Of a DNA stretch of 38,259 nt, positions 32,220-35,906 are shown in pieces; position 1 is the first letter of the stretch; each line of letters begins with the position of its first letter. The stretch comes from an uncultured Thiogranum sp. GTDB taxonomy: Bacteria > Pseudomonadota > Gammaproteobacteria > DSM-19610. The translations under genes were made by a program, and so were the position numbers. The DNA lies in assembly GCA_913053655.1 (NCBI GenBank), contig CAJXFW010000007.1, positions 1-38,259 of the forward strand, given 5' to 3'. The notes beneath the pieces are model-generated. The model did no database searches and was not told the DNA's origin. It saw only the letters and a program-made list of their open reading frames with translations.

Positions 32220-34934
32220 ATGGCAGCCGATAACACCTCTCCTCTTATCCTGGTTGACGGGTCGTCCTACCTTTACCGGGCATTTCACGCCTTACCGGAG
32301 TTAACCAGTTCCAGCGGCCAGCAGACCGGCGCCGTGTACGGTGTGCTGAACATGTTGCGCAAGCTGGTTGACAGCTACCGGCCGCAGTATATGGCTGTGG
32401 TGTTCGATGCCAGAGGCAAAACCTTCCGCGACGATATTTATCCGGACTACAAGGCTAACCGGCCGCCGATGCCACCGGAATTATCCTCCCAGGTAGAGCC
32501 GCTGCTGGAACTGGTGCGTGCTATGGGCTACCCGTTGTTGCAGGTTCCGCGGGTGGAAGCAGATGACGTCATAGGCACGCTGGCCTTGCAAGCCGACGAG
32601 GCGGGTTGGCATACCGTCATTTCGACTGGCGACAAGGACCTTGCACAGCTGGTCAATGACCGGGTCTCGTTGATCAACACCATGAACAACAGCCGGCTTG
32701 ACGAACAGGGCGTGGTAGAAAAATTTGGTGTAAAACCCGAACAGATTATTGATTACCTGGCACTGATGGGGGACGCCTCGGATAATATTCCCGGGATTCC
32801 CAAAGTCGGTCCGAAAACGGCAGCCAGGTGGCTGAGCGAATATGGAACACTGGACCAGCTGGTTGCGCACGCTGCGGAGATCAAGGGAAAGGTGGGTGAT
32901 AACCTGCGCACAAATCTGGACCAGCTGGCCTTGTCCAAAGATCTCGCCACCATTCGTTGTGATGTGAAGCTCGATAAAACACTGGGCGACCTGTCGCTGC
33001 GTCCACCACAACATGATGTACTGCGCGACTGGTTTAAACGCCTTGAATTCAACAACTGGCTGAAGCAGCTGGATGGCGATACAGCGCCAACGCAGGAAGA
33101 AGCGGATGCACCCCCTGCCGGGTTCAAAAGCGACTACCAGACTATACTGACCCAGCAGGCGTTCGATGACTGGCTGCAGCGCCTGCAGCAGGCGGAATTG
33201 TTCGGGTTCGATACCGAGACCACCAGTCTTGACTATATGCAGGCCAGGATCGTGGGATTGTCATTTGCGATCGAACCGGGCGAGGCCGCTTATCTGCCCG
33301 TGGCACACGATTACCCGGGGGCGCCGGATCAGCTGGATCGCGACCGGGTGCTGGAGCAGCTTAAACCGCTGCTTGAAAATCCGCGCCGAACAAAGATAGG
33401 GCATCACCTGAAATATGACCGCAACGTGCTGCTCAACCACGGTATCCGGTTGCAGGGCATTGCCTATGATTCGATGCTGGAGTCCTACCTGCTGGACAGT
33501 ACCGCCAGCCGTCATGATCTGGATTCGTTATGCCGGAAATATCTCGCCCATACCAACACCAAATTTGAAGAAGTTGCCGGCAAGGGCAAGAAACAGCTGA
33601 CCTTCAACCAGGTTCCACTGGAAACAGCAGCACCTTATGCAGCCGAAGACGCCGACATGACCCTGCGCCTGCACCGGCTGTTCTGGCCACGCTTGTGCAA
33701 AGAGGAAAAGCTCAAAGCGTTGTTTGAAGATCTGGAGCGTCCACTACTCACGGTGCTGGCCGACATCGAGCGCACGGGTGTTAAGGTCGATGTATCGATG
33801 CTCGGACAGCAAAGCCGGGAATTGGCAGAGCGTATGCTGGAAGTGGAGGGTGAGGCGCATCAGCTGGCAGGTGAGCCATTCAACATGGCATCGCCCAAAC
33901 AGGTACAGGCGATCCTGTTTGACAAGCTGGGGCTGCCCTCGCTCGCCAAGACCCCGAAGGGAACGCCATCGACGGCGGAACCGGTATTGCAGGAGCTGGC
34001 GCTGGATTATCCGCTGCCGAAACTGATTCTGGAATACCGCTCGCTCAGTAAACTTAAATCAACCTACACCGACAAGCTGCCGGGACAGATAAATCCTGAC
34101 ACCGGACGGATACACACTTCGTATCATCAGGCCGTTGCCGCGACCGGGCGTTTGTCTTCGTCCGATCCCAATTTACAGAATATCCCTGTTCGCAGCGCAG
34201 AGGGGCGGCGTATCCGGCAAGCATTTATTGCCGAGTCCGGATTCGAGATGCTGGCGGCCGATTATTCCCAGATCGAATTACGCATCATGGCACACTTGTC
34301 CGGCGATGCCGGGTTGCTGGCGGCCTTTGCGGGTGGCGAAGATATACACCGGGCTACGGCAGCCGAAGTGTTTGCTATAGCACCCGACCAGGTGAGTACA
34401 GATCAGCGGCGCTCGGCCAAGGCCATAAACTTTGGTCTGATCTATGGCATGTCGGCCTTTGGACTGGCCAAACAGCTGGGTATCCAGCGCGCTCACGCGC
34501 AGGAGTACGTGGACCTGTATTTCCAGCGCTATCCCGGCGTGAAGGCCTACATGGACAAGACCCGAGAGCTGGCGCGCGACCAGGGCTACGTGGAAACACT
34601 GTTTGGCCGACGTTTGTATCTGCCCGATATCGGGGCTCGTAATGCGGTGCGTCGCCAGGCCGCGGAACGCACCGCAATTAATGCACCCATGCAGGGAACT
34701 GCGGCAGACATCATCAAAAAAGCCATGCTTTCTGTGCATGAATGGAATAAATCCAGGGCGGAAGACGTTAACATGGTTATGCAGGTACACGACGAACTGG
34801 TTTTTGAAGTGTCAGTGTCAAAATGTCAGGTGATTGCGGAAGAAATCCGGGCATTGATGGAGTCCGCAGCGGAGTTAGCGGTGCCACTGGTAGTGGATAT
34901 CGGTCATGGCGCCAACTGGGATGAAGCACACTGA
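32220..34934 (+). CDS. polA: DNA polymerase I
   Basis: 904 residues (E. coli 928) with all three domains. The 5'-3' exonuclease (about 1-290) starts LILVDGSSYLYRAFHALP and has GDKDLAQLV and GPKTAARWL. The 3'-5' proofreading domain keeps its acidic residues (Asp331 and Glu333 in FGFDTETTSLD). The polymerase domain has motif A LAADYSQIELR (Asp681), motif B RRSAKAINFGLIYGMSAFGL and motif C VMQVHDELVFEV (Asp858). It fills gaps in Okazaki-fragment maturation and repair. The structured intergenic RNA and engB follow, as in Pseudomonas and E. coli. Confidence 0.98.
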   Translation: MAADNTSPLILVDGSSYLYRAFHALPELTSSSGQQTGAVYGVLNMLRKLVDSYRPQYMAVVFDARGKTFRDDIYPDYKANRPPMPPELSSQVEPLLELVRAMGYPLLQVPRVEADDVIGTLALQADEAGWHTVISTGDKDLAQLVNDRVSLINTMNNSRLDEQGVVEKFGVKPEQIIDYLALMGDASDNIPGIPKVGPKTAARWLSEYGTLDQLVAHAAEIKGKVGDNLRTNLDQLALSKDLATIRCDVKLDKTLGDLSLRPPQHDVLRDWFKRLEFNNWLKQLDGDTAPTQEEADAPPAGFKSDYQTILTQQAFDDWLQRLQQAELFGFDTETTSLDYMQARIVGLSFAIEPGEAAYLPVAHDYPGAPDQLDRDRVLEQLKPLLENPRRTKIGHHLKYDRNVLLNHGIRLQGIAYDSMLESYLLDSTASRHDLDSLCRKYLAHTNTKFEEVAGKGKKQLTFNQVPLETAAPYAAEDADMTLRLHRLFWPRLCKEEKLKALFEDLERPLLTVLADIERTGVKVDVSMLGQQSRELAERMLEVEGEAHQLAGEPFNMASPKQVQAILFDKLGLPSLAKTPKGTPSTAEPVLQELALDYPLPKLILEYRSLSKLKSTYTDKLPGQINPDTGRIHTSYHQAVAATGRLSSSDPNLQNIPVRSAEGRRIRQAFIAESGFEMLAADYSQIELRIMAHLSGDAGLLAAFAGGEDIHRATAAEVFAIAPDQVSTDQRRSAKAINFGLIYGMSAFGLAKQLGIQRAHAQEYVDLYFQRYPGVKAYMDKTRELARDQGYVETLFGRRLYLPDIGARNAVRRQAAERTAINAPMQGTAADIIKKAMLSVHEWNKSRAEDVNMVMQVHDELVFEVSVSKCQVIAEEIRALMESAAELAVPLVVDIGHGANWDEAH

Positions 34935-35159
34935 ACGCCTGTCGGTAGATTGCTGCATTTATTTCAGTTAGTGGGCGAGGAACCAATCGCTGGAAGTCGT
35001 TGTCGGTATGAGTAAGGCTGGATTTTTATTGTTAACACATGTTTGCTAGAAAAATGCTAAAAGTGAACTATAGTAATAGGTATTAAAGCGTGAGCAATCT
35101 GTTGGCTAGTGGCGAGGTGAATATTTATTAAGTGACTATTCACACATACTATACATTAT

Positions 35160-35305
35160 GTATGTGATTTAATGCCATGGAGAGCGTTGCAGCTTTAACG
35201 CTCCCGTTCGCTAACCAGCGGAGCGGGAATTCCTCCAACCCGGTTTCCCCAAGCCGGGTATTCTTGACCCCGGTGCTTCCCCCCTTGCATTCCGGGGTTT
35301 TTTTT
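35160..35305 (+). ncRNA. Candidate small RNA between polA and engB (Spot 42/ErsA position)
   Basis: The polA-engB gap (34935-35306) holds no gene but ends in four consecutive stem-loops: GAGCGTT-8 nt-AACGCTC (35182-35203); a longer imperfect stem CCCGTTCGCT against AGCGGAGCGGG (35203-35225); ACCCGG-10 nt-CCGGGT (35238-35259); and a terminator (35267-35305). Upstream, CACATAC and GTATGTG (35143-35149, 35160-35166) are inverted around an AT-rich core with -10-like TACTAT/TATACA. Spot 42 in E. coli and ErsA in Pseudomonas aeruginosa are encoded in this gap. The 5' end is uncertain by tens of bases, and I cannot show sequence homology. Confidence 0.55.
35267..35305 (+). terminator. Rho-independent terminator
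   Basis: ACCCCGG (35267-35273) pairs with CCGGGGT (35292-35298), with a TGC/GCA extension inside, followed by eight T (35298-35305). It ends the candidate small RNA and abuts the convergent engB stop at 35307. Confidence 0.85.
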
Positions 35306-35306
35306 G

Positions 35307-35906
35307 TCAAAAATTTGATAACCAGCTATTCAATACTGCTCTGGCTTCATCGACCCCGGTTTTCTTCAGCGCCGAAAAAAGCTGCACACTGGCCTGTGGG
35401 TGAAACTCCGGTAGACGTTTGCGTACCGCCAGCAGACCGCTGCTGGCAGGACCACGTTTCAGTTTGTCAGATTTGGTGAGTAGTATATGGGTCGCCAGGC
35501 CGCCGTCAGCACACCACATCAGCATCTGCCGGTCATAGTTGTTCAGGGGGTGGCGGCAGTCCATCAGCAGGATCAGGCCGCGTAGCGACTGTCTGGTCTG
35601 CAGGTACTCGGTCAGGCTGCGCTGCCATTTTTCTTTCATGGCCACTGGCACCCTGGCATAACCATAACCGGGCAAGTCCACCAGGCGCATGGTATCGCCG
35701 AGATCAAAAAAGTTAATTTGTTGAGTGCGCCCGGGGGTCTTACTGGTGCGAGCCAGCGCCCGCTGTCCTGAAATTACGTTCAGGGCGCTGGATTTTCCGG
35801 CGTTGGAGCGCCCCGCGAAGGCGACTTCAGCGCCCTCGTCGGGTGGCGCCAGGTGCGTTTCGGGTACGCTGGTAAGAAAGACTGCACGACGGAAATCGAT
35901 ACTCAT
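35307..35906 (-). CDS. engB: Ribosome biogenesis GTP-binding protein EngB (YihA/YsxC)
   Basis: GTPase needed for assembly of the large ribosomal subunit. The 199-residue product has the P-loop [12 protein letters not shown] (residues 32-43), the switch region [29 protein letters not shown] and the base-specificity TKSDKL. Length and motif order match YihA/YsxC. Convergent with the candidate small RNA, whose terminator sits 2 bp from this stop, and divergent from the cytochrome c4 gene. Confidence 0.96.

Follow-up and report, generated by a model that had tools for sequence, protein, structure and literature searches.

A predicted small RNA gene with C-rich loops between polA and engB of an uncultured Thiogranum, and its proposed kinship with sX13, ErsA and anti-hemB

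The polA-engB gap and the fold of the RNA

The window analysed here, a stretch of 38,259 nucleotides from an uncultured Thiogranum sp., carries the convergent genes polA and engB, separated by an intergenic gap of 372 bases (Table 1). An earlier note, made from the letters alone, had placed a small RNA candidate in this gap, and the ends of both genes agree with that placement. The last third of the gap is its strongly folding part, and the T8 tail at its end stops one base short of the engB stop codon. The interval from SL-A to the terminator folds with -65.1 kcal/mol, compared with -41.6 +/- 3.8 for shuffled sequences (z -6.2, none of 200 shuffles as good), and the four stem-loops proposed in that note, the last of them a terminator, are all present.

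Table 1. Features of the polA-engB region, in window coordinates
Feature	Position	Strand	Remarks
polA	32220..34934	+	upstream neighbour of the small RNA gene
CTATAGT	35068..35074	+	conserved within the genus; may be a -10 box giving a longer transcript
Position of the sigma-E/AlgU promoter in relatives	35143..35175	+	in the window a CACATAC/GTATGTG repeat, no recognisable site
Small RNA core, SL-A to terminator	35182..35305	+	from the fold and covariance model R1 (which covers 35199-35304)
SL-A	35182..35203	+	stem GAGCGTT/AACGCTC; differs among relatives
SL-B	35203..35227	+	CCCGTTC/GAGCGGG; stem strongly covarying
B-C linker with TTCCTCCA	35228..35237	+	no variation in the window's family
SL-C	35238..35259	+	stem ACCCGGTTT/AAGCCGGGT; loop CCCC
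SL-D	35267..35305	+	hairpin 35267-35298, ACCCCGG/CCGGGGT, loop CCCCCC, then T8: intrinsic terminator
engB	35307..35906	-	convergent neighbour downstream of the small RNA gene

The exposed pyrimidine stretches of the window RNA are the linker with TTCCTCCA and the loops of SL-C and SL-D; the loop of SL-B is C/U-rich in most relatives, but not here. Two stretches had been put forward as unpaired. CTCCC (35201-35205) proved to lie in stem arms of the predicted fold, whereas TCCTCC (35231-35236) is indeed free in many folds of sister sequences and when a longer transcript is folded, though partly paired in the exact interval. Among the sisters in the window's family the linker, SL-C and SL-D are nearly invariant, while SL-A and SL-B vary, and the linker is likely to be a target-pairing stretch.

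Compensatory change and distribution

Our covariance model R1 (106 positions, 25 pairs) was built from 31 sequences including the window RNA, and the score of the latter (109.4 bits) is therefore true by construction. The training left out six badly aligning sequences found with a search pattern (L020, L023, L026, L030, L034 and L045). The same pattern, which served for 34 named contigs and for part of the R1 training, fixed a large part of SL-C and the beginning of SL-D, and the invariance of these bases in alignments A1 and A2 is therefore partly by construction; the class-wide R1 counts and the neighbour counts are independent of it.

Conserved SL-B, SL-C and SL-D hairpins with compensatory change are found in the family and in the window RNA, itself a training member of R1. 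In alignment A3 (104 matches, 100 of them distinct), which was fitted to the model structure, thus favouring paired cells, and takes in eight pattern-found loci, 91.9% of the cells hold standard pairs, against 55.1% and 56.8% when the partners are slid by one column. Double-sided changes occur in all 25 pairs (458 cells, compared with 125 +/- 13 in shuffles), and the covariation score is 0.513 versus 0.192 +/- 0.007, a value equalled by none of 500 shuffles, in a control that is inflated by kinship. So large an effect, with pair types so varied, is hard to account for without a real structure; the earlier note had set compensatory changes in the stems of relatives as a check beforehand, and they were found. 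The loops remain C/U-rich while the stem sequences change: the C content of the SL-B, SL-C and SL-D loops is 63%, 66% and 52%, with only 3%, 2% and 6% G, and 84 of the 100 sequences have a C-rich motif in all three. RNAalifold recovered only SL-C and SL-D from the MAFFT alignment A1, because MAFFT misaligned SL-B, which was recovered with the named structure and the covariance model.

A DNA search of 56 genomes, the window's own included, gave matches in 21. Among the 19 loci with polA, engB stands on the other side in 18 (it was not found at L015); the place reported in genome G013 (L021) is a short chance match and is not counted as the RNA. With R1 the RNA was found in 18 of the 20 genomes of the window's family, and not in G013 and G014, which are 82% and 75% complete. 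A collection scan (34 contigs) revealed close relatives in Thiogranum, Thiohalobacter and gammaproteobacterial MAGs, and remoter carriers among records of Thiocapsa, Natronospirales and Chromatiaceae. Across the class, R1 matched 149 of 369 genomes (E <= 0.001, the E-values being rough). The RNA family is mostly unannotated and is present in over a third of the sampled genomes of the class.

The neighbourhood was examined for 139 loci. Of the 149 genomes, 134, in which a match stood among those listed, contributed one locus each; G040 added a second, and the sX13 model supplied four more. Within 1.5 kb, 65 of them have both polA and engB, 30 only engB, 19 only polA and 25 neither, i.e. 114 are close to at least one of the two genes, and the orientation is nearly always the same: of the 84 loci with polA, 79 have it upstream and on the strand of the RNA, and of the 95 with engB, 88 have it downstream and on the other strand. 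Since R1 knows nothing of these genes, their adjacency is an independent check on its matches. The window RNA lies beside both genes in the usual orientation. Of 249 genomes drawn from the phylum, nine had R1 matches, namely the window's own genome, five further members of the class, four of which have the match beside polA and/or engB, and three genomes outside the class, in none of which the match is near either gene.

Strays outside the polA-engB gap occur in some lineages (L146, L149 and L176 of family f103; L124, L127, L134 and L147; L087, L089, L109 and L153). Judged by eye from translations, these relocated loci have an M48-type protease, a nuclease-like protein or a transporter upstream and often a cytochrome c gene downstream; among the 14 of 25 strays inspected, L087, L089, L124 and L135 precede a gene resembling the cytochrome c gene that lies beyond engB in the window (by eye, translated frames). 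Several genomes carry tandem copies of the RNA, two to four in number (L061 1501-2238, L066 1501-2418, L198 3001-3357, L163, L185, L192 and L197), with four each in G189 and G296. In G040 a third copy stands beside engB on a separate contig (L019/L073).

The promoter region

Upstream of the RNA in the wider family we found a site of the form TGAACTT, a 17-base spacing and a GTCTTA-like element, which we take, from the known consensus and from the ErsA papers, to be of sigma-E/AlgU type. Outside the window's family, the -35 motif is present at 96 of 135 loci (shuffles 4.4 +/- 1.9) and the full site at 74 (shuffles 1.3 +/- 1.0); over all 139 loci, 66 of 77 sites have the 17-base spacing. With a matrix made from 70 sites, 105 of the 135 loci, training loci included, beat 99% of their own shuffles. 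The matrix counts are probably lower bounds, because the ErsA promoter is missed, its spacing differing by one base, though the motif can be seen in L199, the locus of ErsA. A loose form of the pattern is found in 15 of the 34 named contigs, for instance in Thiocapsa roseopersicina DSM 217 (L023) and Thiocapsa sp. KS1 (L034). A sigma-70 TATAAT box was also considered for the region upstream of the family and rejected, as it shows no overall enrichment (38 hits, versus 63 in shuffles).

In the window's family the sisters L007, L011, L014 and L016 retain the sigma-E-type site, 51-56 bases ahead of SL-B. The window RNA itself has no such site better than shuffles according to the 70-site matrix. 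The AT-rich, promoter-like stretch with CACATAC/GTATGTG inverted repeats that had been described here does occupy the ancestral promoter position, and the repeat exists (35143-35166), but its sequence is not conserved. The aligned sisters do not have it and the genome holds a single copy, which rules it out as a conserved operator, and by itself it is not above chance, since ten inverted pairs of at least 7 nt occur in the gap, counted over 381 nt. Further upstream, most of the genus keeps the G-rich motif GGCGAGG (35111-35117) ahead of the core as GCGAGG or GCGGGG; in a longer transcript, should there be one, this motif might base-pair with the C-rich stretches. The genome carries an RpoE gene (318 bits) and an Hfq gene.

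Proposed function and relation to known small RNAs

In the window no Rfam family reaches its cut-off, and the same was found for the 18 relatives tried; together with the compensatory changes, this agrees with the suggestion of the earlier note that the RNA is an undescribed member of the polA-engB positional class. The best sub-cut-off scores in the gap belong to sX13 (RF02232, from Xanthomonadaceae; 23.4 bits, gathering score 50), anti-hemB (RF02837, known as ncS04/Bc7 in Burkholderia cenocepacia; 22.5 bits, gathering score 49.5) and Pseudomon-1/ErsA (RF01719, from Pseudomonas; 21.0 bits, gathering score 50). Within the class, the sX13 model matches 15 of 369 genomes (3 over the cut-off) and the Pseudomon-1 model 13 (1 over the cut-off). 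R1 has a match of at least 21 bits overlapping each of the 13 Pseudomon-1 places (G074 by coordinates). At the sX13 places R1 overlaps clearly in 10 of the 15 genomes (G031, G040, G100, G155, G183, G189, G251, G291, G296 and G383) and weakly in two more, with 12.9 bits in G141 and 15.0 bits in G249, while in G034, G083 and G314 no R1 match was seen at that place; three sX13 loci are matched at identical coordinates. The anti-hemB model matches 34 of the 35 R1-positive genomes tried, exceeding its cut-off at R1 places in four, and gives sub-cut-off matches in 3 of 14 control genomes. At L061 matches to the sX13, Pseudomon-1 and anti-hemB models are all present. Because their models match relatives at the same places, sX13, ErsA/Pseudomon-1 and anti-hemB look like branches of one family, and the simplest reading of the sequences would be that they and the window RNA belong together. 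The alphaproteobacterial Rfam models ar14 and Atu_C7 also give sub-cut-off matches at the same places (L059, L057, L061, L064 and L073; 29-40.5 bits), hence the kinship may reach beyond the class.

We consider it quite probable that the window encodes a stand-alone, trans-acting small RNA, which represses mRNAs through its C/U-rich stretches and is a branch of a class-wide polA/engB family that includes sX13, ErsA and anti-hemB. The gene, with a core of about 125-130 nt, would give four stem-loops closing in its own terminator; the TTCCTCCA linker, the CCCC of SL-C and the CCCCCC of SL-D would base-pair with ribosome-binding regions rich in G on several mRNAs, mostly repressing their translation, and Hfq would probably assist the pairing. 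For the organism of the window we infer transcription of the RNA, the way it pairs, its targets, its binding by Hfq and what drives it. A sigma-E/AlgU-type factor seems to drive the RNA in most branches, so the ancestral role was probably a response to envelope stress. The observed basis comprises the structure, its compensatory change and conservation, the location, the promoter motif in relatives and the presence of hfq and rpoE genes. Weighing against it are the window's missing sigma-E site, an SL-B loop that is not C-rich, scores far below the three Rfam cut-offs, the 25 strays among 139 loci and the two family genomes without the RNA. Inspection by eye of the mRNA of hfq, a target of sX13, revealed no run of four G near its start in L213.

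With polA ahead of it on its own strand and a terminator at its end, the RNA might be merely a structured 3' UTR of polA with no trans-acting function. We regard this as improbable: 30 of the 139 loci are near engB but not polA and others are near neither, a separate promoter motif precedes the RNA in most relatives, the C-rich loops are kept although a terminator has no need of them, tandem copies occur, and ErsA and ncS04 have been published as separate transcripts (for ncS04, PMC5688073, as far as the portion consulted goes). A cis-acting antisense element of engB, overlapping its read-through transcripts, would account for the convergent arrangement, for a T-run ending directly before the engB stop codon and for the presence of engB downstream at 88 of the 95 loci that have it; 19 of the 139 loci, however, are near polA and not engB, and the conserved loops and covarying stems indicate a structured trans RNA, which makes this alternative slightly less probable still. 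There is also a frame of 100 aa with an ATG start at 35177, and the small protein SpfP is annotated within E. coli Spot 42, which invites the idea of a small protein encoded at the locus, either in place of the RNA or in addition to it. That frame reads on past the terminator into engB antisense, the near-identical sister L003 has CAC in place of its ATG, and indels of the sisters in loops and linkers break the frame; we therefore rejected the small-protein reading, to which we give hardly any chance.

The main competitor to a single family accepts a real small RNA and ascribes the likeness to sX13, ErsA and anti-hemB to convergence, C-rich hairpin RNAs having arisen repeatedly at a favoured insertion site. 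It would explain why the cross-matches mostly stay under the Rfam cut-offs, with R1 scoring ErsA at 22 and sX13 at 24-29 bits, and why the anti-hemB model responds in some controls. On the other side stand intermediates that match several models at one place (L061, L062, L064, L072 and L096), the four genomes in which anti-hemB exceeds its cut-off at R1 places, and the agreement in position, orientation and, sX13 excepted, promoter type; convergence thus appears unlikely, even if less so than the alternatives above. Common descent is the reading towards which we lean, with some reserve: a single ancestral small RNA, its loops C-rich and its promoter under sigma-E, may have been present between polA and engB early in Gammaproteobacteria (in the GTDB sense) and survive in more than a third of the sampled genomes, with ErsA, sX13 and anti-hemB, which Rfam keeps as three unrelated families, as its branches and with the promoter lost or rewired in the lineage of the window.

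Spot 42 of E. coli (RF00021, gathering score 80 bits) shares the gap and the orientation with the window RNA. The earlier note saw no obvious resemblance between the two, rightly so, as the Rfam model has no match in the window at its gathering score, nor in the gap at E-values up to 10, and the R1 score of Spot 42 is a mere 11 bits (E 0.03), which rules out identity; descent of Spot 42 from the same polA-engB ancestor seems doubtful to us. That note had named ErsA as an RNA of the same gap, and a measurable kinship was found with it and also with sX13 and anti-hemB, neither of which it mentioned. ErsA is reported to lie between polA and engB, under sigma-22 control and dependent on Hfq (PMC5819304, PMC8575079, in the sections available), and to repress algC by pairing with its RBS (PMC6321483, likewise in part). 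The window RNA shares with it the gap, the C-rich loops and a terminator with a C-rich loop, and differs in having no sigma-22/AlgU-type promoter, which most relatives do have, and no long unstructured stretch such as that between the first hairpins of ErsA (PMC8575079, same sections). Anti-hemB has the same hairpin series as the window RNA and is listed, as ncS04, among transcribed, Hfq-binding RNAs of Burkholderia (PMC5688073, in the portion consulted).

sX13, like the window RNA, follows polA and shares its strand, at a distance of 175 bp according to the passages available of PMC3771888, and has stem-loops with CCCC or CCCCC loops and a terminator hairpin with a C-rich loop. Its three C-rich apical loops have counterparts in 84 of 100 relatives, whereas the window RNA has them in SL-C and SL-D and not in SL-B. 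The sX13 loci (L057-L059) have no clear sigma-E site, though GAACC stands at the -35 place. The same passages describe the C-rich loops as acting on G-rich motifs near start codons, compare sX13 with Spot 42 and the alpha-r7 RNAs, and report it to be independent of Hfq, for which reason the use of Hfq by the window RNA is uncertain. In literature outside the subscription journals we found no paper uniting sX13, ErsA, anti-hemB and Pseudomon-1, and none that names even two of them. If the proposed kinship is true, three separately named regulators would be united as branches of one RNA family, the findings on biofilm, anaerobic growth and virulence in Pseudomonas and Xanthomonas could be understood as describing variants of a single ancient envelope-stress RNA, and the covariance model would find the gene where annotation has nothing. 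The 2013 paper on sX13 asked whether the polA loci of other bacteria encode small RNAs that act alike (PMC3771888, in those passages); for one bacterial class our analysis provides a computed answer, with many polA loci whose predicted RNAs have stems that covary, loops rich in C and a stress-type promoter in common.
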